NCBI GenBank assembly: GCA_944322325.1
Contig: CALUOQ010000013.1
Coordinates: 1-64,000 of the forward strand
DNA from: an uncultured Alloprevotella sp.
GTDB lineage: Bacteria; Bacteroidota; Bacteroidia; Bacteroidales; Bacteroidaceae
Direction of reading: 5' to 3'
Length of the DNA: 64,000 nucleotides
A program made the translations under genes and the position numbers. This document shows positions 5,224 through 37,500 of this stretch, piece by piece. Numbering within the stretch: position 1 is the stretch's first letter; the number at the start of each line of letters is the position of its first letter. The notes below the pieces were generated by a model. The model was not told the origin of the DNA and searched no databases. It was given only the letters and a program-made list of their open reading frames with translations.

Positions 5224-6972
5224 TCAGAATTTTGCGGCCGGGCTGTGTGCGTAAAGCTCGGCGCACACGGCCAGCGTGAAACACGCCGTCAGGGCGTAGA
5301 CGTACGCCCGGCGGCGTGTGGCCAGTGCGGCCACGGTCAGTACCAGTCCGCCGTACGTCAGTGCCACGCCCGTCGGCGAGGGCGCGTAGTGAATCGCGGC
5401 GCCCGGCCATTGGGCGATGGCGGCGAGCAGGGTGTTCATGGTGTGCGTCGTGATGTCGAGCACGTGGCCGAGCAGCGTCTGCACTCCCTCGAAGGGGAGG
5501 AGGAAGAAGGCGAGTGCCGCACAAAGGATAACGAACGACGCCGGCACCGCTACGGCGTTGGCCACGAGGAAGTACGCGGCCACCGTGTGGAAGTAGTACG
5601 CCACGAGCGGCAGCACCGCCACCTGCGCGCTGACCGGTACGGTCACCCACGTCGTCAGCAGGCGGCCTGCGAGGCTGTGCCCGCGTGGGGTCAGGAGCGG
5701 CAACAGCAGGAGCAGGGCCGCCATCGACAGAAACGAGAGCTGGAAACTGACGTCCATGAGGGCCTGCGGCCACACCAGCAGGATGACCAGCGCGGCCGTG
5801 GCCAGGCTGTTGACGGCCGAGTAGCCGCGCTGCAACAGCTCCGAGACGACGAGCACGGAGTACATCACCGTGGCGCGCACCAGGGCCACAGGCAGGCCCG
5901 CCAGCAGGGCAAAGGCCCACAGGCCCAACAGCATGGCGATGCCTACCGCGAGCCGCAGCGCGGGATGCCAGCAGCGGCGCAGCACGCCCGTCAGCACGAG
6001 CGAGAACAGGATGGTCAGGTGCAGGCCCGAGAGCGACAGCACATGGCTCGCCCCCGTCTGTGCGTAGACGTCGCGCACGTCGCGGTCGAGGTGGCGGTTG
6101 TCGTTGAGCGTCATGGCCGCCACGACGCCGAGCTCGCTGCCCGTCAGGTGCGGGGCGTAGCGTTCCGCCATCCGGTCGCGCAGGGCGATGGCCCTGACGC
6201 GCAGCCGCTCTCCGGGCGGCAACAAGTGTAGTCCCTGTTCGTCCTGTCGCTGCGATAGAAAATCCTGTCGCTGCGATAGAAAATTCTGTCGCTGCGTTAG
6301 GAATTTCTGTCGCTGCGACAGTTTTTCCGGGCGTAGTCCCCGTTCGTCCCCGGGGGCTGACAGGTTGACCCAGCGCCATGGCGGACAGTAGGCCTGCCCC
6401 GCGATGCCCTGCCGGCGCAGGTAGGCGGCGTAGTCGAACGTCGAGGTGCTCCCCGCGAAGTTGTGGGGCGCCTCAATGCGGGTGCGGACGAGCAGCGTCT
6501 GGCCCACCCTGAGGCGTCCGGGACGGTCGTCGCCGCGTGTGGGCAGGGTGAGGCGCACGTGGCGGTGGCGCCAAGGGCCGTCCGCGAGGCTGACGGTCGC
6601 CGTGACCGAGCGCTGGCCCGCGCGCGGCGTTTCGACGATGACAGCGCGCGTCGTCACGTCGTGCAGCGCCGGCCATCGCACCGCCGTCCGGTCGCGGTCA
6701 GCGACCAGCAGGGCACATCCCGTAAAGAAGAAAAAGAGGAGTACAAAAAGCCCGAACAGGGCGGGCCGCCTGGCCGACGGGCCGGGGTGGACAAGGGCCG
6801 ACGCCGTGGCGCCGAGGCAGGCCATGACGGCGCCTAATAGTAGCGGCCATGTGTGGAACGACAGGTGGGCGTAGAGCACGTCGCCCGCCGCGATGCCCAC
6901 CATGAGCGGCAGGGCCATCCACAGCACGGGATGGTTCCGCAGCAGGCCGCCCGGCGTGTTCAGCGCGTGCAA
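5224..6972 (-). CDS. ComEC/Rec2 family DNA-uptake channel protein
   Basis: A 582-residue polytopic inner-membrane protein. Hydrophobic helices and a DUF4131-like domain occupy about residues 14-200, and the Competence domain with many membrane segments runs from about 285 to the end (SHVLSLSGLHLTILFSLVL is the family hallmark). It is expected to carry single-stranded DNA across the inner membrane. The C-terminal metallo-beta-lactamase domain of the long form is absent. Residues 219-244 are four near-perfect heptads of the type FLSQRQD, encoded by a 21-bp tandem repeat that also occurs elsewhere in the window. They sit in the periplasmic region before the Competence domain, and the reading frame is kept. 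The start overlaps the end of rpe by 13 bp, so the two are co-transcribed. Confidence 0.9.
   Translation of the reverse strand: MHALNTPGGLLRNHPVLWMALPLMVGIAAGDVLYAHLSFHTWPLLLGAVMACLGATASALVHPGPSARRPALFGLFVLLFFFFTGCALLVADRDRTAVRWPALHDVTTRAVIVETPRAGQRSVTATVSLADGPWRHRHVRLTLPTRGDDRPGRLRVGQTLLVRTRIEAPHNFAGSTSTFDYAAYLRRQGIAGQAYCPPWRWVNLSAPGDERGLRPEKLSQRQKFLTQRQNFLSQRQDFLSQRQDEQGLHLLPPGERLRVRAIALRDRMAERYAPHLTGSELGVVAAMTLNDNRHLDRDVRDVYAQTGASHVLSLSGLHLTILFSLVLTGVLRRCWHPALRLAVGIAMLLGLWAFALLAGLPVALVRATVMYSVLVVSELLQRGYSAVNSLATAALVILLVWPQALMDVSFQLSFLSMAALLLLLPLLTPRGHSLAGRLLTTWVTVPVSAQVAVLPLVAYYFHTVAAYFLVANAVAVPASFVILCAALAFFLLPFEGVQTLLGHVLDITTHTMNTLLAAIAQWPGAAIHYAPSPTGVALTYGGLVLTVAALATRRRAYVYALTACFTLAVCAELYAHSPAAKF
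6226..6345. repeat. 21-bp-period array A, inside comEC
   Basis: Four units share the block tgtcgctgcg with CTGCG cores at 6250, 6271, 6292 and 6313, an exact 21-bp period. They are flanked by inverted-orientation units: GTGTAG near 6226 and GCGTAGTCCCCG near 6331. The last unit shares about 20 identical bases (aatttctgtcgctgcgacag) with array B at 16391-16410. The array is translated as heptads in comEC. Confidence 0.85.
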
Positions 6973-7622
6973 AGCGTCTTGAGCACTTCCACCTCGGCTG
7001 CCGGGTCCGCTGCGCCGAACACGGCGCTGCCGGCCACGAGCACGTCGGCGCCGGCTTCCGTCAGCAGGGGCGCGGTCTGGCGGTTCACGCCGCCGTCGAT
7101 TTCGATGAGGGCCCGTGAACCCGTAGCGTCCAGCAGGCGGCGCAGGCGGCGCGTCTTGTCGAGCGTGTGCTCGATGAAGCGCTGGCCGCCGAATCCCGGG
7201 TTCACCGACATGAGCATCACCACGTCGAGGTCCGCCGCGATTTCCTCGAGCAGACTGACGGGCGTGTGCGGGTTGAGCGTGACGCCGGCCATCATGCCCT
7301 CGTCCTTGATTTGCTGCACCACGCGGTGCAGGTGCGTGCAGGCTTCGTAGTGCACGTTCATCACGCGGGCACCGAGCGCCCGTACCTGCTTGACGAATTT
7401 TTCCGGTTCCACTATCATCAGGTGGACGTCCAGCGGCTTGCGCGCGCTGCGCGCCATGGCCTCCATCACGGGGAAGCCGAACGAAATGTTGGGGACAAAG
7501 ACGCCGTCCATGACGTCAAGGTGCAGCCAGTCGCAGGCGCTGGCGTTCATGCGCTCCACGTCGCGCGCCAGGTGGCCGAAGTCGGCCGACAGCAGCGACG
7601 GGGCAATCAGGGGAGTGGTCAT
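6960..7622 (-). CDS. rpe: Ribulose-phosphate 3-epimerase
   Basis: A 220-residue TIM-barrel enzyme that interconverts ribulose 5-phosphate and xylulose 5-phosphate in the pentose phosphate pathway. Visible motifs are the N-terminal IAPSLLSADFG, the metal and catalytic stretch WLHLDVMDGVFVPN, a VHLMI strand, VNPGFGGQ before the phosphate site, and EIDGGVN near the C-terminus. The start at 7622 fits the family length. A longer frame to 7781 reads through the upstream repeats and carries no family sequence. The gene heads an rpe-comEC unit and has a clean -7 box upstream. Confidence 0.96.
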   Translation of the reverse strand: MTTPLIAPSLLSADFGHLARDVERMNASACDWLHLDVMDGVFVPNISFGFPVMEAMARSARKPLDVHLMIVEPEKFVKQVRALGARVMNVHYEACTHLHRVVQQIKDEGMMAGVTLNPHTPVSLLEEIAADLDVVMLMSVNPGFGGQRFIEHTLDKTRRLRRLLDATGSRALIEIDGGVNRQTAPLLTEAGADVLVAGSAVFGAADPAAEVEVLKTLCTR

Positions 7623-7649
7623 CGTGTCGGTGAAGTTTGAAAACGGAGG

Positions 7650-7657
7650 CAAAGGTA
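7650..7657 (-). promoter_or_regulatory. -7 box (TACCTTTG, minus strand) for rpe-comEC
   Basis: Plus-strand CAAAGGTA reads as an exact TAnnTTTG, 28 bases before the rpe ATG. This also argues against the longer rpe frame, whose start would lie upstream of the promoter. Confidence 0.55.
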
Positions 7658-7763
7658 CGCTTTTCCCGAGGAATTGGGACCAGCACCGGGGCCCTTTCTC
7701 AAAACGGAGGTTTGGGCTTCCCTTTGTGGGAGTGGGAGGTGGCGTCACGTGTGGGGGAAGTAG

Positions 7764-7871
7764 AGTGACGCTACGTGTCATTTTTGTGTCTTGACTTGTC
7801 TTCGCAAAGCGTAGCCAAGTGTCAAATCGCGGTCAGATTCGCTTTTCGCAAGTGACGCTACGTGTCATTTT
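7764..7871. repeat. Direct repeat agtgacgctacgtgtcattt between rpe and the transglutaminase gene
   Basis: The 21-base sequence starting agtgacgctacgtgtcattt occurs at 7764-7784 and again at 7851-7871. Between the copies lies an inverted relative (GCGTAG at 7809-7814, with CTTGTC and CAAGTGTC around it). The core CTACG resembles the 21-bp arrays elsewhere, but the spacing of the copies here (87 bases) is not a multiple of 21. Confidence 0.7.
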
Positions 7872-7881
7872 CCCGGGTGGC

Positions 7882-10041
7882 CTATTCCAGTCCGCTGCCG
7901 CTCCACTGCACGTGGGGGAAGCGTTGCCGTCCTTCGGCGTCGAGGGTGAAGGGCAGTTCCTCGCGCCCCTCCGTCAGGTCGGTGAGGCGGTAGAGTCCGC
8001 CGACCTCCAGTTCGGCTTCGAGGTAGTCGTACGTGGCGGGGCGCATCCACTCCGTGCGCCATCCGCGGCGGTCGTCCCATCTCATCAGGCGGTAGTGGTG
8101 TCCGTGGACCACGGTGTTGGCCGCGCTTTTGGGGGCGAAGCGCAGGGCGTCGACCCACTGCGGCTCGGCCAGGACCAGCGTCACGTCGGGCCAGCGGTCG
8201 GGGGCCGTCTGCACATTGCCGTCGTACTCGCGGCGCCAGCCGCATTTTTCCAGCGGCTCGGCCATCAGGCGCACCCAGCCCGTGTCGCGGCGGGCGGTGT
8301 CGGCCGGCGTGTGGGCGACGAGGGGCGTCGGCGCGATAACGTTGGTGTAGTCCCGGTCACGGCGGGCGAGGAATTGCAGTTCGGCCAGGTGCATGTGGGG
8401 ATGGCTCTTGGGCGTGCGTACCCGGTAGTAGCGGTATGGGCGCTTGGCGTGCAGGGGGACGTCCGCCCAGTAGGGGCCCTCGATGGCGCCGATGCGGGCC
8501 AAGGTGTCGGCTTGGGCAAAGTTACGCTGGTCGCTGCCCAGCACGACGACGTCCTCCATGCGGCGCGCCTGGGCCACGAGGTCCGATTTCCACGGGAACT
8601 TGCGTGTCAGGATGGCTTTCACTTTCTGCCCCGTAGGTGCGGGCAGGGTGTCCACGCGCAGCCCGCCGGGGCGGGTGCTGTCGGCGGCTACCCACAGGGG
8701 GCGGCCCGCCGGGCGCAGGCGCCCCATGGCGTCGGCACAGGTGGGAAAGTACAGGTTGTCGGGCACCACGTGGTCGAAGGTGGCCTGTCGCGCCGCGGAG
8801 TCGATGCGGCTCCACGTTACGGCCTGCAGGCCCGCTTCACCCCGGAACGTGGCCAGGTAGAGCATCCGGCGCTTGGCGGGCACCGTGGGCGGCACGTCGA
8901 GTGTCAGGCTCCCCACGGCCCCGTAGAGGGCCGTCACGTCCTCGATGCAGGGGTCTGCCATTTCGGGCGGCAGGGGCTCGCCGGGCGCGCGGAGCGCGTA
9001 GGGATTGTCCGGCCACGGCGCGAAGTGCAGACGGTACAGGTTCAGGCTGCCCGGAAACTTGCCGGAGGCGGCCACGGGCAGGTTGCTCTCGGGGCTGAAG
9101 GGGCGCCACGCCCCGTCGGGCATACGCACGGCCACCATGAAGTGGTGGCCCTCCCACAGGCGGTAGGCCGAGTTGTACTCCACCGCGACGGGTACGCCCG
9201 CCGCGCGTAGCGCCAGGGCACCGTAGTGGGCCACGTCGATGCAGTCGTGCAGTCCGCCGAACATCAGTTCAGGCAGGCTGCAGTTGCCCTCGAACGGGTA
9301 TTTGCCGCCGGTGCGCCGCAGCCACGACACGTACTGGTTGTAGCGCTGCGCCACGTCGACGAGGCTCTGCGCCGTGTCGGCCCGCAGGATGGGAGCGAAG
9401 AGGCTGTCCGTCCGCGCCGGGTCGTCCGTCATCGGGTAGAAGCCGATGGCGCGATAGGGCAGGACGTATTCGCAGAAGTCGTCCCACTTGAGCGAGCGGG
9501 CCCAGGGAGAGCGCTGGCGCAGGCGCATGGCGTGTTCCACCTGCCGGCGCACGTAGTCGCCCGTCAGGCTGGCGGCGTCGGGCAGTTCCTCGATGTGCAT
9601 CGCTGGCGGCGTCAGCCTCAGGGCCTGCGTGCGTTTGCGCAGGGCCGCGGCGGTGTCGTTGAGGGCCTTGCGCAGCGGCTGGCGGCGCTGGTCCGCCGCG
9701 CTGTGGCCGGTGGTCAGCTTCAGGTAGGCCGTCGTGGCCACCGTCCACAGACTGTCCAGCCGCGGGTCGTAGCGCTCGACGTATCCCGCCCGCTTGTGCC
9801 AGCGCATGTGGGCTACAAGGTAGCAGGCAGCGTCGTATTTCTCGCGCGAGGGGCCGCGGCGGTAGTCCTCCAGCACCCGTTCGAGCGAGGCGCGGTTGAC
9901 GCCCGCGCCCTGAAGCCCTTGTTCCACCGCTTCGGGCGGCACATCGGCGCGGGCGCCGGGCAGGGTCAGCAGACTGAGCGACAGCAGCAAAAGGGCCGCC
10001 CCCGTGCGGGGGCGGCGTCCTGTCAGTTTCAATGGATTCAT
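7882..10041 (-). CDS. Secreted transglutaminase-like domain protein
   Basis: A 719-residue protein with an N-terminal hydrophobic signal segment (ALLLLSLSLLTLPGARA, about residues 16-32). The middle holds a transglutaminase-like core: GLHDCIDVAHYGALALRAAG (candidate catalytic C267), then WEGHHFMVAVRMPDGAW, giving candidate H299/H300 and D309. The C-terminal third is beta-rich and looks like a carbohydrate- or protein-binding module (YWADVPLHAKRPYRYYRVRTP and a later second half), which is inference. Such proteins in Bacteroidetes often act on peptides or as cysteine proteases in the periplasm or outside. A real enzyme activity is not shown. The gene is separated by 32 bp from the small paralogs upstream and may be read with them. 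Confidence 0.75.
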   Translation of the reverse strand: MNPLKLTGRRPRTGAALLLLSLSLLTLPGARADVPPEAVEQGLQGAGVNRASLERVLEDYRRGPSREKYDAACYLVAHMRWHKRAGYVERYDPRLDSLWTVATTAYLKLTTGHSAADQRRQPLRKALNDTAAALRKRTQALRLTPPAMHIEELPDAASLTGDYVRRQVEHAMRLRQRSPWARSLKWDDFCEYVLPYRAIGFYPMTDDPARTDSLFAPILRADTAQSLVDVAQRYNQYVSWLRRTGGKYPFEGNCSLPELMFGGLHDCIDVAHYGALALRAAGVPVAVEYNSAYRLWEGHHFMVAVRMPDGAWRPFSPESNLPVAASGKFPGSLNLYRLHFAPWPDNPYALRAPGEPLPPEMADPCIEDVTALYGAVGSLTLDVPPTVPAKRRMLYLATFRGEAGLQAVTWSRIDSAARQATFDHVVPDNLYFPTCADAMGRLRPAGRPLWVAADSTRPGGLRVDTLPAPTGQKVKAILTRKFPWKSDLVAQARRMEDVVVLGSDQRNFAQADTLARIGAIEGPYWADVPLHAKRPYRYYRVRTPKSHPHMHLAELQFLARRDRDYTNVIAPTPLVAHTPADTARRDTGWVRLMAEPLEKCGWRREYDGNVQTAPDRWPDVTLVLAEPQWVDALRFAPKSAANTVVHGHHYRLMRWDDRRGWRTEWMRPATYDYLEAELEVGGLYRLTDLTEGREELPFTLDAEGRQRFPHVQWSGSGLE

Positions 10042-10073
10042 GCAAGTTTGGGTTTACGAATTTTGTGTACAGT

Positions 10074-10793
10074 TCATTCCTTGCGCACGGGGAATACGTA
10101 GATGCCGTCGCCCTGCGCGGCCTTTGGGCGCCCCTGGTCCAGCCAGAGGCGGTAGACGTACTTGCTGACGACGAACTGGAAGCCCATGTCGTTCTTCAGG
10201 CGTCGCTTGGTGACCTTTCGGACGAGGCGCTTCATGCGCTTGGGGTTGGTGATGGCGGAGTTTTCGAAGAGGGCGTCGACGTAGGCGGGAATGTCGCCGC
10301 CGTACTCGCGGTCGATGGTGGCGTATAGGTAGGGCAGGGCCGTGGCGGTGTCGCGGAAGGCGGTGAGCTGGCGGACGAGCTTGGCTTTTTCGGCGGCTTC
10401 GTCGTAACGGCCGGAGGTGAAGAGCTGCTGTTGTACTTTCTGAAATTTGAGGGCGCGGCGACGCGGGGCATTTACACTGGCAGGTGGCCCTCCGACGGAG
10501 GAACCCGATATGCCGTAAGGGCCTATATTGCTCTTGGATGCGTATGCCGCTCCGAAATTAACACGATCAATGCACACGTCCATGCCTACGTAATAAGCGT
10601 AGCAACTGTCGAAAATGCATTTGTCATGAATGAGGTCTGTATGGGCAGACTTGGTGTAAACGTAACGGATGTTGTTGCTTGCGTGGGGTACGATAGTGAG
10701 TCCTGTCGCGGACACGGGGATGCTCAATGAAACGATGAATAGCAAGCCCACAGCTACCGTCATTTGTAATACGTATATAAACAGTTTTTTCAT
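10074..10793 (-). CDS. Small secreted protein, S46-peptidase-like helical segment (copy 1)
   Basis: A 239-residue protein with a signal segment at residues 1-30 (MKKLFIYVLQMTVAVGLLFI onwards), a motif HDKCIFDSCY with two cysteines, then a helical C-terminal half with LPYLYATIDREYGG and IPAYVDALFENSAI. That half resembles, from memory of the family, the helical region of S46 dipeptidyl-peptidases (Dpp7/Dpp11). The S46 trypsin-like catalytic domain is absent, so peptidase activity is not expected. The 3' half is almost identical to the next gene while the 5' half is diverged. It lies 61 bp downstream of that paralog, on the same strand, so the pair is probably one transcript. The function is unknown. 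Confidence 0.75.
   Translation of the reverse strand: MKKLFIYVLQMTVAVGLLFIVSLSIPVSATGLTIVPHASNNIRYVYTKSAHTDLIHDKCIFDSCYAYYVGMDVCIDRVNFGAAYASKSNIGPYGISGSSVGGPPASVNAPRRRALKFQKVQQQLFTSGRYDEAAEKAKLVRQLTAFRDTATALPYLYATIDREYGGDIPAYVDALFENSAITNPKRMKRLVRKVTKRRLKNDMGFQFVVSKYVYRLWLDQGRPKAAQGDGIYVFPVRKE
10079..10409. repeat. Duplicated segment, copy 1 (partner 10860-11190)
   Basis: About 330 bases at a constant offset of 781 from the partner segment, with only scattered single-base changes. It covers the shared C-terminal part of the two small secreted proteins and stops abruptly at the 5' side. Confidence 0.9.
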
Positions 10794-10854
10794 GCTTTCA
10801 GGTATTTATAAGTCGTTGTATTTTTGTCGGTGCAGTGTGTGTCGCGTGTCCCGT

Positions 10855-11583: not shown

Positions 11584-11694
11584 CGTTTGAGATGTTTTGA
11601 GGGTAAACATTTGCGCTTCCGGCTGCGGCCGGCGGTCGGCGAGTGGCGGTGCGTCCTTACCGGCTGTGTGGCCGCAAGGGTCGGTAGACATTTA

Positions 11695-11702
11695 CAAAGT
11701 TA
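11695..11702 (-). promoter_or_regulatory. -7 box (TAACTTTG, minus strand) for the S46-like pair
   Basis: Plus-strand CAAAGTTA. It implies a leader of about 100 bases before the ATG at 11583. Confidence 0.45.
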
Positions 11703-11872
11703 GGGATAAAAGGAACAAGTCGGTTGCTGCGCGGAGCGGATTTATACAAAATTAGCGCAACAGGGGTATAAAAGCACGAAAAGCTCCCATTCAGCACCGC
11801 GGCAAGCGGGCCCGGCAGGCCGACTATGGGGAAAGAGCGGGCCGGACCGGCGGCTGTTTCCCGAAATGTGCT

Positions 11873-11880
11873 TACCTTTG
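11873..11880 (+). promoter_or_regulatory. -7 box (TACCTTTG) for the GH29 gene
   Basis: Exact TAnnTTTG, 28 bases before the ATG at 11908. Confidence 0.55.
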
Positions 11881-11907
11881 TCCGTAAGTAACCCAAACAA
11901 CTCAACA

Positions 11908-13390: not shown

Positions 13391-16180
13391 TCAGAAAGCA
13401 ATCTTCAGACCGGCGTTCACGCGGACACCGTAGTACTCGGCCTGCATCGTGCGGTCTTTCGAGCCCTGATAGTAGCGCAGGGGCTGGTTGAGCAGGTTGG
13501 TGGCTTCGGCGTAGACGGTGGTCTTGAACGTCTTGCCGAAGGTGTAGCTGGCGTTGACGTCCATGTAGTTCACCTTGTCGTAGTAGCGGTCCTCGAAAGA
13601 CTCGTCGCCCACCTCGTCGATGAAGTCGCTGGCGAAATTGTAGCTCCAGCGGACGTTGAAACCGGCCTTCTCAAAGTAAAGCGAGAGGTTGGCGGTGTGT
13701 TCGGGCGAGCCCGGGAGGCGCAGGTCGTCGTTCTCGCGGCCCTCGAAGTTGAAGTGGCTGACCTTGCTGTAGGTCCAGGTGTAGTTTCCGTAAAGTCCCA
13801 GGCACTGGAGGGCGGGGTGGATGAATCCGAAGTCGCGCTGGTAGGCCACCTCAACGCCGAAGAGGTTGGCGTCGCCGGCATTGAACGGGCGTTTCATCTC
13901 GTCGTAGAGCGTACCGTTGTACGTGTAGTCGTTCTGGCGGAAGTCGACGATGAAGTCGTTGACCTTCTTGTAGAAGACACCGGCGCTGACCAGCCCGATG
14001 CTCTTGAAATAGTACTCGGCGTTGAGGTCGAGGTTGTACGAGAGGGTCGGCTTCAGGTCGGGGTTGCCGAAGGCGATTTCGTCCTTGTCGATGATGACGT
14101 TGGGGACGAGGTTGGCGTACTTCGGACGGGAGAGGGTGTTAGTAAAAGCGGCGCGGATTTTCAGGTCGTCGCTCACGTTGAACTTGGCCAGGAAAGCCGG
14201 GAGTACGTTGAGATAGCTCTTGCCCTGCTTGCCGGTGGGGGTGAGGCTTTCGTCGGCGCCGCTCTCCTTCCCGTCGTCGTAAATCCAGCCACTGTAGTCC
14301 ACGCGGGTGTTTTCGAGGCGCAGGCCGGCCATGAGCTGCCATTTCTTGCCGATTTGTTGGTCGAAGCGCAGGTAGCCGGCGCTGACGGTTTCGGTAGCGT
14401 CGAAGTTCTCGGCCTCTTCGTCGAGCTTCTCTTCTTTCTCGAACCGGTCGGCGTCGTTCACGTTGAGGTCGCCGATGTACTCCTTGTCGACGTAGTTGCC
14501 CACCTTGTAGCGGTCGCCGGCCAAATAGCCGTCGCGGTCCTGGTTGCTGAGGTGGCCGAACGCGTCGTCGATGAAGGCGTCCTCGTCGACGGGCTTGTAG
14601 TCGTAGAAGTCGACCTCCTTGTACTTGTCCTTGCTGACCACCTTCGCGCCGAACTTCAGCTTGTTGGCGTAGCGGCCCTGCATGAGCGGGAGCTCGAAGT
14701 TGGCGGCAAACTTAAGGTCTTTCTCCTTAATATCCTCGAAGCTCTCGGTCAGCTCGTCGAACTCGTAGCCGTTGCTGTTGCTGCGGTTGAGCAGGAGGTC
14801 GCCCGGGTTGACAGCAGCCATGTAGGGGCGGCGGATGTCGCTGAAGTCGGTGGTCATGTCGACGCCCTCCTTCTTGAAGGCGAGGTAGCGCTCGTGCGGG
14901 CGTTCCTCGCCGGCTTGCGAGTAGGAGGCTTTCCAGTCGAACTTCAGGCGGCCGAAGAGGTGGTCGCCGCTCAGGGCGTAGTCCATGGTGCGCTGGCGCT
15001 CCAGGCGGGCGTAGCGCTCGTCGGGCCCGCCGGCCTTGCTTTCGTAGACGACGTCGTAGTTCTCGTCGTTCCACTCGTAGGTGGAGCGGTAGCGGTTTTC
15101 CCAGTCGTTGCGGTTGTTGAAGATGCCCTTGAAGTCGATTTTGTGGTTGGCGTTGATTTTCCAGTCGAGAGCGAGGGAGTAGCTCTGGCGCTCGCGGGTG
15201 ACGTAGTACTGGCGCATCTCGTATTCGTCGATGTACACGTTGTCGTCGTCATCGCGCTTGTAGGCCATCTCGACGTCGTCGCTGCCGGCGGGGTTGTTCT
15301 GGTAGGAGGCGGCCAGCATGAGGCCCAGTTTGTCGTTGAAGAAGCGGTCGCCGTAGCTGAAGCCGAGGTTCAGGCCCAGCGTGTTGCGCACCCAGTTGTA
15401 GCCGCTACCGACGGTGGCGGTGAAGAGGCGGCGCGAGGGCGAGTTTTTGGTGACGAGGTTGATGGAGCCGCCGATGGCGTCGGCGTCCATGTCGGGGGTG
15501 ACCACCTTGTTGACCTCGATGGTCTGAATCATGTCGGCGGGAATGAGGTCGAGCTGTACATTACGCGTCTCGCCCTCGGCCGAGGGGATGCGGCTGCCGT
15601 TGATGGTGACGGAGGTGAGGTCGGCGCCCGTGCCGCGCACCTGGCCGAAGCGGGCCTCGCCCTGGTCGTACTGCACGTTGATGCCCGGGATGCGCTTCAG
15701 CGCATCGCCGATGTTCGAGTCGGGGAACTTGCCCACCTGGTCGGCCGACACGATGTTCGTGATGCCGAGGTTGTTTTTCTGCATACTCAGTGCGCGGCGC
15801 TGACCGCTGAAGGCGCCGCCCACGACGGCTTCCTTGAGCTTGAGCGCCTCGACCAGGGTCACGTCCTTGCTGACGGTTTTGCCCTCGCTTACGGTAAGGG
15901 TCATTTCGACGGGCTTGTATCCCACGTAGCTGACGCGCACCTTATATGTGCCCGGAGCCAGGTTCGAGAACGTGTAGTAGCCGTTCACGTCGCTCGTCAC
16001 GCCGGTGTGCAGCGATTCGATGTAGATGTTGGCCCCCGGGAGGGTCTGTGCGGAGGCGTCGACAATGCGGCCGCGGATGGCACCCCGGCGCTCGGCGCCC
16101 ATGTCGTCGTTGGCCATCAACGCACCTCCCGACAGGGAGAAGAGCGTCGTGAGGAGAACTGTTTTTGTGACTTGTCGCAT
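13391..16180 (-). CDS. TonB-dependent outer-membrane receptor with carboxypeptidase-regulatory-like N-domain
   Basis: A 929-residue outer-membrane transporter. A signal peptide (TVLLTTLFSLSGGALMA) is followed by a carboxypeptidase-regulatory-like domain from about residue 34 to 110 (GRIVDASAQTLPGANIYI, GYYTFSNLAPGTYKVRVSYV). Then come the plug (about 140-250, DALKRIPGINVQYDQG, DADAIGGSINLVTKN) and a 22-strand barrel ending in aromatic F (NAGLKIAF). It lacks a SusD partner, so it resembles single-component receptors rather than SusC. The frame runs 2.5 kb further upstream, but the ATG at 16180 is right because the signal peptide starts there and a -7 box lies just before it. The divergent S9 peptidase suggests possible peptide uptake; that is inference. 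Confidence 0.92.
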   Translation of the reverse strand: MRQVTKTVLLTTLFSLSGGALMANDDMGAERRGAIRGRIVDASAQTLPGANIYIESLHTGVTSDVNGYYTFSNLAPGTYKVRVSYVGYKPVEMTLTVSEGKTVSKDVTLVEALKLKEAVVGGAFSGQRRALSMQKNNLGITNIVSADQVGKFPDSNIGDALKRIPGINVQYDQGEARFGQVRGTGADLTSVTINGSRIPSAEGETRNVQLDLIPADMIQTIEVNKVVTPDMDADAIGGSINLVTKNSPSRRLFTATVGSGYNWVRNTLGLNLGFSYGDRFFNDKLGLMLAASYQNNPAGSDDVEMAYKRDDDDNVYIDEYEMRQYYVTRERQSYSLALDWKINANHKIDFKGIFNNRNDWENRYRSTYEWNDENYDVVYESKAGGPDERYARLERQRTMDYALSGDHLFGRLKFDWKASYSQAGEERPHERYLAFKKEGVDMTTDFSDIRRPYMAAVNPGDLLLNRSNSNGYEFDELTESFEDIKEKDLKFAANFELPLMQGRYANKLKFGAKVVSKDKYKEVDFYDYKPVDEDAFIDDAFGHLSNQDRDGYLAGDRYKVGNYVDKEYIGDLNVNDADRFEKEEKLDEEAENFDATETVSAGYLRFDQQIGKKWQLMAGLRLENTRVDYSGWIYDDGKESGADESLTPTGKQGKSYLNVLPAFLAKFNVSDDLKIRAAFTNTLSRPKYANLVPNVIIDKDEIAFGNPDLKPTLSYNLDLNAEYYFKSIGLVSAGVFYKKVNDFIVDFRQNDYTYNGTLYDEMKRPFNAGDANLFGVEVAYQRDFGFIHPALQCLGLYGNYTWTYSKVSHFNFEGRENDDLRLPGSPEHTANLSLYFEKAGFNVRWSYNFASDFIDEVGDESFEDRYYDKVNYMDVNASYTFGKTFKTTVYAEATNLLNQPLRYYQGSKDRTMQAEYYGVRVNAGLKIAF

Positions 16181-16346: not shown

Positions 16347-16432
16347 GCAAAAACAAGTGCTACGTCCGTAAAAACAAGTACTACGATAGAAATTTCTGTC
16401 GCTGCGACAGGAAAAACGGGGACTACGCCCGT
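16347..16432. repeat. 21-bp-period array B (intergenic)
   Basis: Four variant units with cores ctacg, ctacg, ctgcg and ctacg at 16360, 16381, 16402 and 16423, an exact 21-bp period. Unit 1 contains aaaaacaagtgctacg, identical (in reverse complement) to array D in the GH2 gene. Unit 3 shares 20 bases with array A in comEC. Unit 4 (acggggactacgccc) matches the flank of array A. Two unit flavours are therefore mixed in one array. Confidence 0.85.
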
Positions 16433-16543: not shown

Positions 16544-18406
16544 ATGACAACAACGAACAGCGCCCCTTTCGTACCCCGCATCCCGGTGGAGGACTTTTTC
16601 CGCAATTCCGAACGCACGGGCTATCAGATTTCGCCCGACGGCCGTTATTTCTCCTACTTCGCGCCCTACGCCGACCGGCAGAACCTCTTCGTGCAGCCCG
16701 TCGACGGCGGCGAGGCCGTGCGCCTTACGTCGGAGACGGAGCGCAGCCTGGCCGGCAGCATCTGGGCCAACGAGCACCGCCTGCTCTTCATGAAGGACAC
16801 GGGCGGCGACGAGAACTACAAGCTCTTCGGCGTGGACCTCGACGGCACCGACCTGCGCGCCTACACCGACTTCGAGGGCGTCAGGACGCAGCTCATCGAC
16901 CCGCTCAACCACGTGGACGACGAGGTCATTGTCGGACTGAACCGCCGCAACCCGGAGGTGTTCGACCCCTACCGCCTGCGCCTCTCGACGGGCGAGCTGA
17001 CGCTGCTGGCTGAGAACCCGGGCAACGTGCAGGGCTGGATGACGGACCACGCCGGCCGCCTGCGTGCCGCCACGGCCATCGTGGACGGCGTCAATACGCA
17101 GCTCCTCTATCGCGACACGGAGGACGAGCCGTTCCGCGTCGTGCTGACCACGAATTTCAAGGAGACCGTCAGTTTCGTCGACTTCACTCCCGACAACCGG
17201 CTGGTCTACGCCCTGACCAACCTGGGGCGCGACACGGCAGCCCTCGTGCTGATGGACCCACGCACCTGCCAGGAATTGGAAGTGCTGTTTGAGCATCCGC
17301 ATTACGACGTGGCGAGCATCAGCTACTCCGAACGGCGGCAGAAATTGCTGTCGGCCTGCTGTGTGGGCCACAAGGGTGTGATACGCCATTACTTCGATGC
17401 CGAGGAGGAGGCCATTCGCGCCCGGCTCACGCCGCGCTTTGCAGGCTACGAGTTCGGCACAGCCGACTGGGACCGCAGCGAGCGGAAGCGGCTCATTTAT
17501 TCGGCAAACGACCGCACGCGCGGCCGATACACCTTTTACGACGCCGACACTGACCGCCTCGAACCCGTGGCCGAACTGGCGCCGTGGCTCGACGAGGGCG
17601 CGATGGCCGCCATGCATCCCGTGACGTACACCACGCGCGACGGCCTCACTATCGAGGCTTACCTGACCCTCCCCGCTGGGCTGACGCCCGACACCGCTCG
17701 CCGTGTGCCCGTCGTTGTCCATCCCCACGGCGGCCCTTGGGCGCGCGACACGTGGGGCTACAATCCCGAGGTTCAGTTTCTGGCCAATCGCGGCTACGCC
17801 GTTTTCCAGATGAACTTCCGCGCCTCGACGGGCTACGGGCGCCGGTTCAACGAAGCGGGGTTCAAACAGTGGGGCCGCGCCATGCAGGACGACATCACGG
17901 ACGGCGTGCGCTGGCTTGTCGGCAAGGGCATCGCCGACCCGGCCCGCGTGGCTATCTATGGCGCCAGCTACGGCGGATATGCGGCCTTGGCGGGCGTCAC
18001 GTTTACGCCCGACCTGTATTGCTGTGCCGTAGACTACGTGGGGGTGTCGAACCTGTTGACATTCATGCGGACCGTCCCGCCCTACTGGAAGCCTATGCTC
18101 GACATGATGTACGAAATGGTGGGTGACCCCGTGGCCGACCGCGAGATGATGGAAGCCTGCTCGCCTGCCCTCCACGCCGACCGCATCGTGGCGCCCCTGC
18201 TCATCGCACAAGGGGCCAACGACCCTCGCGTCAACAAGGCCGAGAGCGACCAGATGGTCGAAGCGCTGAGGGCGCGCGGCGTCGAGGTGGAGTACATGGT
18301 CAAGGACAACGAGGGCCATGGATTCAGCAATCAGGAAAACAAGTTCGACTTCTATCGCGCCATGGAGCGCTTTCTGGAGCGCTATCTGGGCCCGGCGGTC
18401 GGCTGA
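16544..18406 (+). CDS. S9 family peptidase (prolyl oligopeptidase/acylaminoacyl-peptidase type)
   Basis: A 620-residue cytoplasmic serine peptidase. An N-terminal seven-bladed beta-propeller (about residues 20-340, ISPDGRYFSYFA, FTPDNRLVYAL) shields a C-terminal alpha/beta-hydrolase domain. The expected triad is S475 in GASYGGY, D560 in GANDPRV and H592 in NEGHGFS, and HPHGGPW (393-399) is the oxyanion motif. No signal peptide is visible from ATG 16544; the frame extends 10 codons further to a TTG without adding one. It probably cleaves short imported peptides. The 3' end overlaps the convergent DUF5690 gene by 25 bp. Confidence 0.92.
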   Translation: MTTTNSAPFVPRIPVEDFFRNSERTGYQISPDGRYFSYFAPYADRQNLFVQPVDGGEAVRLTSETERSLAGSIWANEHRLLFMKDTGGDENYKLFGVDLDGTDLRAYTDFEGVRTQLIDPLNHVDDEVIVGLNRRNPEVFDPYRLRLSTGELTLLAENPGNVQGWMTDHAGRLRAATAIVDGVNTQLLYRDTEDEPFRVVLTTNFKETVSFVDFTPDNRLVYALTNLGRDTAALVLMDPRTCQELEVLFEHPHYDVASISYSERRQKLLSACCVGHKGVIRHYFDAEEEAIRARLTPRFAGYEFGTADWDRSERKRLIYSANDRTRGRYTFYDADTDRLEPVAELAPWLDEGAMAAMHPVTYTTRDGLTIEAYLTLPAGLTPDTARRVPVVVHPHGGPWARDTWGYNPEVQFLANRGYAVFQMNFRASTGYGRRFNEAGFKQWGRAMQDDITDGVRWLVGKGIADPARVAIYGASYGGYAALAGVTFTPDLYCCAVDYVGVSNLLTFMRTVPPYWKPMLDMMYEMVGDPVADREMMEACSPALHADRIVAPLLIAQGANDPRVNKAESDQMVEALRARGVEVEYMVKDNEGHGFSNQENKFDFYRAMERFLERYLGPAVG

Positions 18407-24235: not shown

Positions 24236-25321
24236 TTATCGGTTGCCCCTGGCGGGGGCGGCGTGGCTGGCGTACTCTCCCTCGCTCTTTTCGAGTAGGG
24301 GGAGGTAGGCTTCGACGGCCTGCTCGACGGTGCGGACAGCCTTCTCGAGCGGCCAGGGCAGGCGTCCGCCCGAGGCGTTGAGATGGCCGCCGCCGTTGAA
24401 GAACTCGGCCGCCATGCGGTTGCAGGGAAAGTCGTCCACGGAGCGCAGCGAGACGCGGATGATGTCGGTCTCGGTGTCCTCGCGCAAGGAGATGCTTAGC
24501 CTGGTGCCACGGACCTGGAGGGGCAGGTTGACGAAACCCTCGGCGTCGCCACGGATGTAGTTGAAGCGTGCCATGTCCTCGCGGGTCAGGGTGAAGAGCG
24601 TAGCGCGGCCGCCGGCCAGAAAGCGGAGCCGCTCGTAGAGCACGTAGCCCATGAGGCGCAGCCGGCTTTCGGTGTAGTTGTTGAATACGTTGCGGTAAAT
24701 TTTGTCCTTGTCGATGCCTTTGGTCAGCAGCCGGCTGATGATGAGGTATATTTCCGGGTCGTTGGAGTTGTAGGTGAAGCCGCCCGTGTCGGTCATCATG
24801 CCGGTGTAGAGGGCGGCCGCGGCGTCGCTCGTCATGGCGTCGAATCCGCCCAGCTGGTCGATGAGTCGGAATACGAGTTCGGACGTGGAGCTGCGCTCGG
24901 GGTGCGAGATGGTGAGCGCGGCGAACGACGTGTCGGGGTCGAGGTGGTGGTCGATGATCACCTTTTTCGCCTGCGACCGCGCTATGGTTTCGCCCATGTT
25001 CTCCAGCCGCGAGAGGGCGTTGAAGTCGAGACAGAAGATGAGGTCGGCCTCGCGGATGTAGCGCTGGGCGGTGTCGGGCTGCCGGTCGTAGAGTACGGTC
25101 ATGCCCGCGCCGGGCACGGTGCGCAGAAAGTCGGGGAAGGGGTTGGGCATGACGATGTTGGTCGTCTTGCGCAGGGAGCGCAGGTAGAGGGTCCACCCGA
25201 TGGCCGAGCCCAGGGCATCGCCGTCGGGGCTGCGGTGGCCGCAAACGACAATGCGCCGTGCCTCCTGGATGAGGCGCATCAGGGTAATGAGTTCTTTGTC
25301 CGTGAGGAGCGGTGTCAGCAT
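24236..25321 (-). CDS. nrnA: DHH-family phosphoesterase (NrnA/oligoribonuclease-PAP phosphatase type)
   Basis: A 361-residue enzyme with an N-terminal DHH domain and a C-terminal DHHA1 domain. Metal-binding motifs are GHRSPDGDALGS (H29, D33, D35), CLDFNALSR (D99) and VIIDHHLDPD (124-126); the DHHA1 domain ends with FNGGGHLNASGG. NrnA-type proteins degrade short RNA (nanoRNA) and can dephosphorylate pAp; which activity dominates here cannot be read. It is cytoplasmic and has its own -7 box. It lies upstream of the sigma gene on the same strand, with a 114-bp gap. Confidence 0.9.
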   Translation of the reverse strand: MLTPLLTDKELITLMRLIQEARRIVVCGHRSPDGDALGSAIGWTLYLRSLRKTTNIVMPNPFPDFLRTVPGAGMTVLYDRQPDTAQRYIREADLIFCLDFNALSRLENMGETIARSQAKKVIIDHHLDPDTSFAALTISHPERSSTSELVFRLIDQLGGFDAMTSDAAAALYTGMMTDTGGFTYNSNDPEIYLIISRLLTKGIDKDKIYRNVFNNYTESRLRLMGYVLYERLRFLAGGRATLFTLTREDMARFNYIRGDAEGFVNLPLQVRGTRLSISLREDTETDIIRVSLRSVDDFPCNRMAAEFFNGGGHLNASGGRLPWPLEKAVRTVEQAVEAYLPLLEKSEGEYASHAAPARGNR

Positions 25322-25354: not shown

Positions 25355-25462
25355 CGAAAATCTGCCGAACGGCGCGCGGCCGGCGGCTTTCATCTTAAGC
25401 CGGAGGCGGGTGTGGCTCGGGGGCGGGGATGGAAAAACACCGGGCGCGGGCTGCCGAAAAGC

Positions 25463-25560
25463 AAGCGTAGTCATCCGAAAAACGGGCGCAGCGATAGTTT
25501 TTCCTATCGCTACGCCCGTCGATTCTGTCGCTGCGCCAGGATTTGTCGGCGCGGCGACTG
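25463..25560. repeat. 21-bp-period array C, with an orientation switch
   Basis: Cores CGTAG (25466) and CGCAG (25487) are 21 bp apart in one orientation. CTACG (25510), CTGCG (25531) and CGGCG (25552) are 21 bp apart in the other. The switch makes a near-palindrome, acgggcgcagcgatag / ctatcgctacgcccgt, centred at about 25500, which could fold as a hairpin downstream of the gene at 25565 on the minus strand. The array lies between that gene and nrnA. Confidence 0.8.
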
Positions 25561-25564
25561 GGAC

Positions 25565-26224
25565 TCACGGTTCGAGAACCAGTTGCTGGGTCACTTTGTC
25601 CTTCGTGACTTTCATCTGGAGCGGATTGGGGTTGTCGGTGTTCTTTTCTCCGTACTGGAACTCCATGAAACCGGTCCCTTTGCCAGACTGGTGCCAGTCG
25701 CACATTTCGGCCTTTGCGACTTCGTAAGTGCGGTTCAGTGCGTCGGTGATGTTCATGCCGTCGACGATGATGGTCTCGTCCTTGTAGGGTGCGTCGCCGA
25801 GGAAGTGCAGGCATTTGTTGTAAAAGCTGAGTTGGGCCGGCGACATGTTGCGGTAGCCGCAGTATTCGCACGCGGGGTCGACATGGTCGAGGTAGTTGCG
25901 GAACTCGTAGCGGAAGGTGCGCAGGCAAATCAGGTAGAGCAGGTATTCGCCGTAGTCGTAGCCGTCGCGGAAGTCTATCTGCTTGCCGTTGCGGGTGAAC
26001 GTGTAGTATTTGTCGGTGTAGTACTTCTTTCCCTGTTTGTTGGTTTTGAGGCCACGCTGTACGTACGTGGCTTCTATCCCCTCGTGGGGGCAGACTTCGA
26101 CTCTTTCTACTTTTTCGACTTCCTCTTTCTTGACGATTTCGTTCCTGTGGCTGTTGTTTGTCGTGCAGATCCACAGTGTGGAGAGCACGAGCGCACCGAT
26201 GATGAGGCAGATGGTTATAAGCAT
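25565..26224 (-). CDS. Unknown protein with N-terminal membrane anchor
   Basis: A 219-residue protein. Residues 1-20 (MLITICLIIGALVLSTLWIC) form a membrane anchor or signal, followed by a charged linker (EEVEKVERVEV). The rest is soluble and contains a C-x2-C motif (DPACEYCGYRNM) and the stretch KYYTFTRNGKQIDFRDGYDY. I do not recognise a family. The C-x2-C with an upstream CPHEG could bind metal, which is speculation. Array C begins 5 bp after its stop. Confidence 0.65.
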   Translation of the reverse strand: MLITICLIIGALVLSTLWICTTNNSHRNEIVKKEEVEKVERVEVCPHEGIEATYVQRGLKTNKQGKKYYTDKYYTFTRNGKQIDFRDGYDYGEYLLYLICLRTFRYEFRNYLDHVDPACEYCGYRNMSPAQLSFYNKCLHFLGDAPYKDETIIVDGMNITDALNRTYEVAKAEMCDWHQSGKGTGFMEFQYGEKNTDNPNPLQMKVTKDKVTQQLVLEP

Positions 26225-31165: not shown

Positions 31166-31189
31166 AGCTGCCGTAAGTCTCTGCATATG

Positions 31190-31239
31190 AAGTTCCGCTC
31201 TTGGCGTGTCCAGCCTTGCTGGTCGCCGGTGCGGAACTT
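31190..31239 (+). terminator. Hairpin after lipoprotein paralog 2
   Basis: Arms aagttccgc (31190-31198) and gcggaactt (31231-31239), followed by tctttgtgtg. Confidence 0.55.
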
Positions 31240-31321
31240 TCTTTGTGTGTACAACGGCAGGCGAATGATTTTTTAACACGACGAAATTGCCGAGTGCCGT
31301 ACGAGTAGTATGGAAAACCGC

Positions 31322-31329
31322 TATTTTTG
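31322..31329 (+). promoter_or_regulatory. -7 box (TATTTTTG) for the C10 protease gene
   Basis: Exact TAnnTTTG, 25 bases before the ATG at 31354. Confidence 0.5.
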
Positions 31330-31353
31330 CCTTGTTTTATAAGGATTATAATT

Positions 31354-33840: not shown

Positions 33841-33872
33841 CCTCTTGTTGTATAACCCGTTACATGTGAGCA

Positions 33873-34433
33873 ATGAAACATAATCGAATTTTTCAGAAAG
33901 GAACTCTTGCCGCAGCAGGTGGTCTTTTGCTCTGTGCAGCTGCGGCTGCGGGGTGCGCGTCCCATCGGGGCGACGCTTCTTCCGAGCCGGCAGTTTCGGC
34001 CGGTAGCCCGTCAGTGCCGCCCGGCGGGACGATCGCGGGTGGCAGTCCCCAGGTGGCGTCACCTCCAGTCATCATTTACAAGACGCGGAAGGACTATTCG
34101 CACAACGTGCCCGTGATAATGGACGCGTCGCGCCGTCGCATCGTTTCGTACCCGGCTCCTTCCGACTTGCGGCGGGGCAAGGAGCTCGCCTTGCCTACTC
34201 TGCTCGAGGGCGGTTTCTGGCTTGACAACCGGGGCATCAACGAGCATGTGGCCTTCCTCACTTATACATACGAGGAGTACAGCCGCCTGCCTAAAGCCCC
34301 GTCGATGGACGAACTCATGGCGCACCTGCTCGACAAGCAGCCACTGGTTGATTTCCGTGTGTGTGGCCGTCGGGCGGATTACGACGACATTGTGAGCGAA
34401 CTCAACGCGCTGATTCGCCGTAACGGCTGGTAG
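33873..34433 (+). CDS. Conserved Bacteroidales lipoprotein, function unknown
   Basis: A 186-residue lipoprotein. Signal segment LAAAGGLLLCAAAAAGC gives the lipid cysteine C27. A proline- and glycine-rich linker (about 40-65) leads to a compact domain with YKTRKDYSHNVPVIMD, LPTLLEGGFWLDNRGINEHV and AFLTYTYEEYSRLPKAPSMD. The domain resembles a conserved Bacteroidales hypothetical family of no known role. It is 32 bp after the C10 protease and ends in a strong terminator, so the two are likely one operon; it might assist or inhibit the protease, which is inference. Confidence 0.75.
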   Translation: MKHNRIFQKGTLAAAGGLLLCAAAAAGCASHRGDASSEPAVSAGSPSVPPGGTIAGGSPQVASPPVIIYKTRKDYSHNVPVIMDASRRRIVSYPAPSDLRRGKELALPTLLEGGFWLDNRGINEHVAFLTYTYEEYSRLPKAPSMDELMAHLLDKQPLVDFRVCGRRADYDDIVSELNALIRRNGW

Positions 34434-34471
34434 CGCGTTCCCGGTGAGGGCTTCGCCCGAAAGAAAAATAT

Positions 34472-34515
34472 GCCCGCCGGCCTTTCCTCCAGTTACGGGG
34501 GATGGGCCGGCGGGC
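34472..34515. terminator. Bidirectional terminator between the lipoprotein and GH2 genes
   Basis: Arms gcccgccggcc (34472-34482) and ggccggcgggc (34505-34515) lie between the plus-strand stop at 34433 and the minus-strand stop at 34550. Confidence 0.75.
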
Positions 34516-34549
34516 TTCGTTGTTGTTTCAGGTCTCTGAAATGGTTTTG

Positions 34550-37500
34550 TTATTGGATGTTGAGCGAAATGCGTCCGTAGCAAGGCAAGGCTTCAAGGCA
34601 CTTGCAGTAGTTGCCCCAGGCTATTTCGGGATAGTCCCATCGGTTGTTGACATAAAGGAACAGGCTTTCGTCAGCCTTTCGGCTGAGGCGACAGGCCACC
34701 GAAGCGGTCGGGTCGGTCACGGTCAGGCGGTGCGTCTTGCCATCGCCTTGCTGGCTTAACTGATAGACGTAGATGTTTTCCTTCATACCCTTGGCGGCCT
34801 GCGTCAGGGGGCGTTTGCAGTTGGCGCCGGCATCGGCCCAGTAATAGTAATTGTGTGTGTCGAGGGGCCAAGGCTGGTCGGGACGCTCGCCATAAGCCGG
34901 GACGTTTGCGTTGTAGAGCGGGAAACGGCCCTCGTTGCCGGCAAATTCGCCTTCGGGGTAGTAGTTCCAATATCCGTCGCGTTCCCACGAGACGGTGTCG
35001 TACACGTCAGCGGGCAGACGGAATCCCAGTCCCGTTTCGCGCAGGTAGCCGTTGGGCAGGCCGTCGGTGGTGTAGCTGATGTCGAGCTGTCCCGTCGGTT
35101 TGATGCAGATGGTGTAGTCCACGTGTACATCGCCGTAGTGGCCGGACAGGCGGACACAGACGTCGTCACCGGTTTTCTTCCAGTCGAAACTTTCTTTCTC
35201 CCACGAGTCGGGGTCGACCGTGTATGAGCTGGCCATCTTGCGCACTTCGGCGCCCGAGAGGTGATTCAGGTTGACCTGCATGTGGGCGAGCGGGCCGCGC
35301 TCGATGACGACTTCGTTGCCGGATTTTGCATTTGTGATAAGCCCTGTGTTTTTGTCGAAAGGGATGGTGAAACCAGGTCCGGCGACGGTCAAAACGGTCG
35401 CAGCGTCCGTGACGACGAGCGCAGCGCCAGAAACGACGGGCGTAGCACTTGTTTTTCGCGTCTGGCCGATGGTGGGCTGATAGGCATCGATGAGCTGGCC
35501 GTCGCGGTCGAGAAACTCGATGAACACGGATTTGCCGTCCGTCCAGTCGCAGGCCGGCAGGGTGAGCGTTCCTTTCCGGTGGGGCTCCGTCGGGGTGAGT
35601 GTGGCGGCGGCAGTGTGGCCGTCGTAGGTGAAGCGGGCCGTGATTTCACGGAGGTTGGTGTGGTCGAAGCGGTTGTACACCGTCAGGACTATCGGTGAGC
35701 CTGCTGTGGCGTCGATATAGTCATTCACAAAGAGGCGCACCGGCGAGTAGGCTTTCTTCGTCGACCAGAATTCGGGTTTTGGCCGTCGCCATACGTCGAC
35801 GATGCCCCACTCGCCGTAGCCGACGCATTTGCCCTGCACGTCGGCAGGTTTGGCCGTGTGGGCGAAAGTCTTCCAATAGGCCGTGCCGACTTTCGGTTCG
35901 GGCAGGGCGAACGTCTCGTCGACGTAGCCCCAGATGGCGCCACCCAGTCCGCCGGGGGCGTCGAACAGTCCGCTCCACATGCGGTCGAGCGATTGCCCCC
36001 AGAACTCGCGGATGCCGGGGTCTTCCTGAAGGGTGGAGTAGGTGTAGCAGGCAGGATGGGCCCACTCGTCGAAGAGGGCGGGGATGCCGTGACCTTGGAA
36101 GCCACGGGTCGACATGCCCCACTGGTCGAGGTTGCCGTTGTAGTCCTGATAGTGCATACTGAGGATGTCGAAAATTTTCTGTTTGCGGTCCACCGAGCCG
36201 GGATAGCTGAATATGACCGGGCGGGTGGAGTCGTTCGCCTTCACCCAGTCGTAGCTGAGCTGGAAGTTGGTACCGTAGGTGCTTTCGTTGCCGATGCTCC
36301 ACATGATGATGCTCGGGTGCGTACGGCTGCTTTTCACCATTTCCTGACATTGCCCCACGTATTGTGCAGTGTGGGTAAGGTCGTTGTGGGAAGCGCCCGG
36401 CGCGTAATTTTTCTGGCGGTAGGTGTTGACGAAGCAGACGGCTGTTTCGCTTTCGACGTAGATGCCGTAACGGTCGCAGAAGTCGAGGAAGCGCTCGTTG
36501 GGCGGGTAGTGCGACGTGCGGACGAAGTTCATGTTGGCTTCCTTGAAGAGGCGGGCGTCGAGGCTGTCGATTTCGCGTGTGGTGGTGCGGCCGAGAGTGG
36601 GATGGAGGTCGTGCCGGCAAGCGCCGCGCAGTTTGACGGGGCGGCCGTTGACCAGGAGGCGGGCACCTTGCACCTCGATTTCGCGGAAGCCGACCTGCCG
36701 GCGGAGGGTATAGCTGTCGCCCCCGGAGGCAGTGGTCGTCAGAATGAGGGTATAGAGGTTGGGATGTTCGGCGTCCCATTTGGCCGGGCTGTCGACGTTC
36801 AGCGTGAGCGTATCCCGACTACCGGGGGCAAGGGTAAACTGAGGGGTCGCCAACGGAACGGGCTTGCCCTGCGGGTCGAGCAATTCGACGCGCACTTTGG
36901 CCGGGCGTTTGCCGTCGACGTTGCAGCTGAGCCGCAGTTCGGCGTTTTGGTAGACGGAATCGAGGTCCGTTTCGACGTTGAGGTCGTACAGGTGGGTTGA
37001 GGGCAGGCTGTAGACCGTGACGTCGCGCAGGATTCCGCCGATAGGATGGTGGGCGTATCCTGCGGCGTAGGAGATGTCGTCGATGCGGTCCACGACTTCA
37101 AGCGCGACGCGGTTGTCCCGGCCCGGCGTGACGAGGTCGGTGATGTCGGTTTCCCAACGGGTGAAACCACCGCGGTGCTCGCGGACGAAGCGGCCGTTCA
37201 CGTAGAGCTTGGCCCGGCTGTAGACCCCGTCGAAGCGCAGTATGGTGCGACGGTCCTTGAAGTCGGCCGGCAGGCGAAAGCTTCGTTCGTAATAGAAGGG
37301 CTTGTCGTGTTGGATGGCATAGCCTTGCATCGCTACTTCGCCGGGTACTTGGACCGTGGTCCAGCGGCTGTCAGCCGTAGGGCGGAAGCGCCATTCGCCG
37401 TTGAGCGATACGACCGGTGTCCGCACGCCGTTTACCGACTCGGGAAGCACGTACGTGCGTGGGCCCGCAGGGTCGTACGTCTGTCCCAGTGCCTGCATTC

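Follow-up and report, generated by a model that had tools for sequence, protein, structure and literature searches.

We analyzed a 64-kb stretch of DNA (hereafter the window), which is contig 13 (CALUOQ010000013.1, positions 1 to 64,000) of the 2.72-Mb draft genome of an uncultured Alloprevotella sp. (designated G000), and the dispersed arrays of short palindromic units that it carries. A DUF4301 protein matched Bacteroides at 72% and Prevotella at 58%, indicating affinity with the Bacteroidales. The original prediction, made from the letters of the window, had placed arrays with a 21-bp register at four loci, and the coordinates of their cores confirmed all four. Array 1 (6223..6342) contains six 15-bp cores at 6223, 6244, 6265, 6286, 6307 and 6328 with a period of 21 and lies in frame inside comEC (5224..6972, minus strand, 582 aa; Pfam PF13567 at aa 41-197 and PF03772 at aa 287-550), where it encodes aa 210-250 between the DUF4131 and Competence domains. 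A 407-aa frame at 5156-6379 was at first taken as ComEC and then dropped in favor of this Pfam-supported frame. Array 2 (16354..16431; four cores at 16354, 16375, 16396 and 16417) occupies the divergent gap between genes for a TonB-dependent receptor (13391-16117, minus strand) and an S9 peptidase (16544-18406, plus strand), both supported by Pfam. Array 3 (25462..25560) has cores at 25462, 25483, 25504 and 25525 and a weak fifth at 25546; it lies between a DHH family gene (24236-25321, minus strand) and a gene with no Pfam match (25565-26224, minus strand), adjoining the 3' end of the latter. Array 4 (35395..35451; three cores at 35395, 35416 and 35437) is in frame inside a GH2-family gene (34550..37573, minus strand; PF02836, PF02837, PF00703) and corresponds to about aa 682-701 of the called 982-aa product, past the last Pfam match. 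Arrays 1 and 4 thus lie inside genes, which corrects the earlier description. Tandem Repeats Finder detected array 1 only (3.7 copies, 91% matches) and missed arrays 2-4 because their units differ. Long words common to distant loci, also noted earlier, were visible by eye, and the window gave no Rfam match at the gathering threshold.

Analysis of the arrays in G000 revealed a common architecture. Each array comprised 3-8 units, and each unit consisted of a 15-bp core, in which two inverted half-words flank a 3-base center (CTA/TAG/CWG), and a 6-bp A/T linker. The center was CTA, TAG, CAG or CTG in 335 of the 345 strong cores listed, and linkers between strong cores had an A/T share of 86%. Across the 78 arrays found in G000 (see below) the step between units was exactly 21 bp in 271/319 cases and 22 bp in 24/319. 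The vocabulary of half-words was small (CTRTC, CAAGT, CGGGG/CTGGG, CGGGC and some rarer ones), with half-words pairing in many combinations both inside the core and over the linker; the two unit flavors described in the original prediction both occurred, but as two combinations from this larger vocabulary. CAAGT was preferred at the outer ends of arrays (69 among at most 156 end halves, compared with 84 among all inner halves). The order of units was more palindromic than in permuted arrays (mean 5.37 compared with 4.59, standard deviation of permuted means 0.12), and 48 of the 78 arrays exceeded their own permuted mean. The 6-bp A/T linkers recurred among arrays while the cores varied, the reverse of the identical repeats and unique spacers of clustered regularly interspaced short palindromic repeats (CRISPR), and the earlier view that the arrays are not CRISPRs stands. 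No leader or tail with terminal inverted repeats like those of an insertion sequence (IS) was found, the flanks of the listed arrays being mutually unlike by eye. The array at 6473 of L023 was followed on its right side by one more hairpin (GCGTCCGCCTGACTC...CGGTCAGGCGGACGC), with unit-like spacing and unrelated letters.

The genome scan that the original prediction proposed was carried out on 824 kb (C1, 400 kb; C2, 200 kb; C3, 160 kb; and the 64-kb window), equal to 30% of the 2.72-Mb genome, using a detector of unit chains whose half-words were taken from the window arrays. This analysis revealed 78 arrays (38 in C1, 21 in C2, 15 in C3 and 4 in the window) and none in the reversed sequence. 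The arrays were therefore more numerous than first described, the original four being 4/78, and extrapolation from the scanned sequence gives about 250 per genome. With a looser cut-off, applied to C1 alone, there were 42 arrays compared with 8 in reverse. The word CTRTCGCTGCGAYAG had 133 copies in the G000 genome and none when read backwards, and exact copies of four word patterns always fell inside arrays (127/127 in the 824 kb) and never stood single, a count that refers to exact words only. Six of the 78 arrays lay inside called genes with the frame kept open, with Pfam support for two (comEC and GH2), and 7 of the arrays outside genes overlapped gene ends. Divergent gaps held 23 of the 71 classified intergenic arrays, tandem gaps 36 and convergent gaps 12, which is near the shares of gap length in these classes (36, 46 and 18%, respectively); the classes are approximate and the divergent share may be too high, because the gene caller written for this work misses small genes (on 50 kb of Parabacteroides distasonis it recovered 31 of the 46 genes annotated and made no false call). 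Within tandem gaps, arrays lay nearer the upstream stop codon (mean relative position 0.33, Kolmogorov-Smirnov P = 0.0016; n = 31 in the histogram of 34 listed).

The arrays were also evenly spaced. Intervals between them (n = 74) had a mean of 10.2 kb, a minimum of 2.29 kb and a coefficient of variation (CV) of 0.64, compared with a CV of 1.21, 0.87 and 0.84 under three null models and 0.96 under a fourth that is free of gene calls. No interval was shorter than 2 kb, compared with 22.8, 7.6, 7.2 and 13.0 expected under the same four nulls. In another species of the genus, G043, the CV was 0.44 compared with 0.61 (P = 0.02).

Comparison with relatives revealed two sites at which an array is present in one species and missing elsewhere. 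The best match to ComEC in the genus was that of G043 (52% identity over the Competence part), which is shorter by 35 residues, equal to five units, at the site of array 1. When ComEC was aligned with that of 29 other species, two of which were read in the wrong frame and left out, the insert was missing in 27/27 readable ones. The comEC case is one clear in-frame insertion, and the arrays are a source of in-frame protein insertions. At a second site, a G043 array lies in a 200-bp gap while the matching G000 gap is 17 bp long and has no array (C2:186381 versus L097:16833). The earlier suggestion of a spreading repeat is supported, because the comEC insert is absent from relatives, the G000 gap is only 17 bp long and the words are common across the genome; where tested, the core neither occurred everywhere at random nor formed conserved coding sequence in relatives. 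No target-site duplication was noticed at the arrays, although no systematic search for them was made.

These insertions bring in the first of two serious rivals to the reading that we favor below, namely that the arrays are selfish repeats resembling repetitive extragenic palindromic (REP) sequences or miniature inverted-repeat transposable elements (MITEs), moved by a putative enzyme and without host function. We regard this as possible but doubtful. The even spacing would then reflect target immunity or the loss of close pairs, and positions common to species would be old insertions. The in-frame comEC insertion and the presence/absence case at C2:186381 versus L097:16833 both fit such elements, as do the lineage-specific families described below, the preferred outer half-word and a distribution over gap classes that roughly follows gap length. 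On the other side, PF01797 (Y1 or REP-associated tyrosine transposase, RAYT) was not found in G000 (90.7% complete) or G043 (86%), in a search confined to this transposase family. Mobilization by a RAYT was rejected for G000 since the draft has no Y1 match; within the genus such a match was present in 28 of 58 genomes, but not in G000 or G043, the species with the most arrays counted. The prediction that no IS surrounds the arrays was borne out insofar as Y1/RAYT genes, the only ones checked for, are absent. The selfish explanation also fits poorly with positions that tend to persist as words change, and with the four searched words never being single, unlike ordinary REPs.

We also examined the distribution of the arrays in the genus and in other Bacteroidales. 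The exact word CTRTCGCTGCGAYAG occurred in none of 40 relatives (24 of the genus and 16 of the order). A vocabulary-free search was made for stretches matching themselves at a given distance, with 25 other distances as comparison. In 19 other species pooled there were 58 self-matches at distance 21 and 14 at distance 22, compared with a maximum of 11 at any other distance. Distances 21 and 22 together exceeded every other distance in 11 of the 19 species singly, a lenient test in which one species rests on a single match and a few matches resemble coding repeats. The words differed between species by eye (CTACCTCTGAGGTAG in G047, CTGCAGTGCTTGTAG in G019 and CATCCCATGGATC in both G015 and G016), and 22-bp words were seen in G072 and G009. 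The words of G043 were related to those of G000, and a detector built from its own half-words, with a lower cut-off and runs of N scored as A, found 50 arrays in 231 kb compared with 1 in reverse. Counts of perfect hairpins in G043 were set aside, being inflated by runs of N. Samples of G004, G008, G014 and G006, two of them shorter than 9 kb, gave none or one match each.

Outside the genus, a total of 197 kb from sixteen further families of the order gave one match at 21, which resembles coding repeats, and one at 22; L183:11591 (G035, another family of the order) holds an apparent dyad array of 22-bp period, whose word is again a different one. Prevotella sp. oral taxon 299 (NC_022111.1, 350 kb) had 22 matches at distance 22 and at most 2 at other distances. 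P. distasonis (200 kb) had 8 matches at 22, 2 at 21 and 4 at 23, one of these matches being a coding repeat; at the remaining eight sites this one genome used several words that are unrelated to each other. Its longest array of period 22 among those seen (L265:32831-32973) lies in a tandem gap, directly after the stop codon of a DUF6078 gene that our caller missed and upstream of a BT4734/BF3469 family gene. A single period-22 array was found in Bacteroides finegoldii (100 kb). The original prediction did not foresee that the architecture extends across the genus and into other Bacteroidales, where the words differ. NZ_OY725757.1, NZ_OY725914.1 and NC_022111.1 are labeled plasmids but look like pieces of chromosome, judged by rpoB, rpoC and ribosomal genes, ATP synthase genes and a 1.77-Mb circle. 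Paired-word matches on one Elusimicrobia contig and one viral contig were dismissed as chance, neither being in an array by eye.

Lineage dialects, even spacing and uniformity of words within a genome would also be expected of self-recognition marks for DNA uptake that spread by biased transformation, similar to DNA uptake sequences (DUS) and uptake signal sequences (USS), but we consider this explanation very improbable, and we know of no uptake receptor in Bacteroidales. DUS dialects exist in Neisseriaceae (PMC3630211); the marks described there are thousands of single words, in contrast to about one array per 10 kb here.

The persistence of array positions was measured by mapping G000 gaps of at least 150 bp to G043, which gave 31 gaps for this one species pair, 15 with an array in G000 and 16 without. 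By eye, a G043 array was present in 13/15 array gaps compared with 4/16 control gaps. Gap C1:76747 was dropped since control gap 376154 had been credited with the G043 array to which it maps, leaving 12/14 compared with 4/16 (30 gaps, by eye; Fisher P = 0.0013). Two further cases were doubtful, namely C1:224248, whose G043 array is common with control gap 106284, and C2:187720, which falls at a mirrored contig end; without these as well the count was 10/12 (P = 0.006). When the automatic detector was restricted to gaps of 200-700 bp, the numbers were 8/9 compared with 3/9 (P = 0.05), and a vocabulary-free score separated array from control gaps (P = 0.0025). An orthologue-side test gave 7/8 compared with 5/62 (P = 5e-6), with some gaps counted twice and gap length uncontrolled. 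Between the sister species G015 and G016 (92.9% identity over 25.6 kb), both arrays in the compared 40 kb of G015 were matched at the same place in G016, and one of them keeps a long hairpin despite paired changes on both arms. Array positions are likely, although not certain, to persist between G000 and G043. The end of one G043 contig (L097:18470-18868) mirrors the sequence before it, with the fold at an array; the palindrome probably caused this as an artifact of assembly.

The arrays share features with several known repeat systems and differ from each. Plasmid iterons are a few direct-repeat units with a spacing of about two helical turns at one origin; the present arrays likewise have few units at such a spacing, but consist of inverted half-word pairs dispersed over a chromosome. 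Rickettsia palindromic elements are also inserted in frame into genes, but as single longer elements without the 21-bp mosaic found here. REP sequences and bacterial interspersed mosaic elements (BIMEs) are similar in being high-copy intergenic palindromes forming mosaic arrays in both orientations with lineage-specific sequence (PMC2817692, PMC3116915 and PMC3733652), and in G000 the arrays are indeed numerous and mostly intergenic mosaics of palindromes (78 in 824 kb, 6 of them in genes). The present arrays differ from REPs and BIMEs in their near-exact two-turn period, short half-words and lack of a GTAG/CGTC tag common to all words, as well as in the failure to find a Y1/RAYT gene in either G000 or G043, in the lack of single copies of the searched units and in having some members in coding frame. 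Among repeats already described in the order, the closest one we found is the BrickBuilt MITE of Porphyromonas gingivalis, which is also made of short tandem units and limited to its species. It occurs in 19 copies and has 23-nt direct repeats and a leader and a tail with IS5-like inverted ends, and 22-nt tandem repeats are reported for strain W83 (PMC4596501). Unlike BrickBuilt, the present arrays show no leader or tail, have units in both orientations and reach an extrapolated 250 or so per genome. The TAACTGA repeats of Beggiatoaceae and some Bacteroidetes are likewise abundant genome-wide sets of short repeats with some inside reading frames, but they are one fixed heptamer in direct repeat, and most lie a short way before start codons (PMC4679880). 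No description of the present arrays was found in the open full-text literature, a search that did not cover most subscription papers or any preprints.

Our leading, still tentative, reading is that the arrays are BIME-like mosaic palindromes found genome-wide that act as DNA and are written in lineage-specific words. A putative dimeric protein would bind every pair of inverted half-words, and a repeat length of 21 or 22 bp would set neighboring dimers on the same face of the helix, two turns apart. Arrays about every 10 kb, mostly in gaps between genes, may then have an architectural or topological role. The earlier suggestion of a binding-site array gains support, at the level of DNA sites, from three features, namely a two-turn period in which the letters are free, the even spacing and the partly conserved positions; binding itself is predicted. 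The reading is also backed by the absence of arrays from reversed sequence, the restriction of the searched words to arrays, the pairing kept through changes on both arms between G015 and G016, the preferred outer half-word and the palindromic order of units in G000. DNA binding is preferred since cooperative binding needs a fixed two-turn period with free letters and RNA structure does not, and even spacing together with lasting places suggests either a use or a strong insertion rule. Words are uniform within G000 but change from species to species, which calls for a process of copying or conversion that would keep them uniform; within a lineage, words may spread and be replaced together, with many arrays staying in place.

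Several results weigh against this reading. In G043, the deficit of short intervals was not significant (2 compared with 4.3, P = 0.13), which makes for a weak test of even spacing, and the order of units was not more palindromic than in permuted arrays (4.46 compared with 4.37). Across all mapped gaps, the automatic detector found a G043 array in 8/15 array gaps compared with 4/16 controls (P = 0.15), and the strictest count, in which two unusual cases are also scored absent, lowers 12/14 to 8/12 compared with 4/16 (P = 0.053). The several unrelated words of the P. distasonis genome fit poorly with one binding protein, and no binding protein was found. RNA folding of the arrays was strong (median z of -6.5 compared with mononucleotide shuffles), and an A-run before or a T-run after the array was present in 43 of 78 cases compared with 97 of 1030 random pieces, which is terminator-like.

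Folding and A/T runs at array ends are what the second serious rival would predict, in which the arrays are bidirectional transcription terminators or 3' RNA hairpins, that is, tandem stem-loops with A/T linkers. Its support extends to the bias toward the upstream stop codon in G000 tandem gaps, to the B. finegoldii array, which begins directly after a stop codon, and to gap classes in other species. The oral taxon 299 arrays were in 12 tandem, 7 convergent and only 3 divergent gaps of 22 (own gene caller), and the eight non-coding P. distasonis arrays, one of which our caller misclassed, were by annotation in 4 convergent, 3 tandem and 1 divergent gaps. Nevertheless, we judge this explanation unlikely. 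In G000, 23 of 71 intergenic arrays were divergent, near the gap share (with the caveat on missed small genes given above), array 2 lies in a divergent gap whose two genes have Pfam support, arrays 1 and 4 are within genes that Pfam also supports, and RNA stems give no ground for an exact period.

Returning to arrays that act as DNA, a bolder form of this reading, on which we would place little weight, is an addressing system common to the Bacteroidales, in which positions and the two-turn ruler are conserved, letters are free, and a putative DNA-binding or copying machinery rewrites all arrays of a genome together to give species dialects at inherited places. Spacing, and often place, that are kept while the sequence differs per species are hard to fit to REP, MITE or terminator models, and could reveal how Bacteroidales chromosomes are organized, or a new mechanism by which short repeats are copied. 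Sequenced strains of Prevotella, Parabacteroides and Bacteroides carry arrays, which makes the machinery open to laboratory study.

At the start of the window, positions 44-88 hold a short 18-bp tandem repeat of 2.5 copies.

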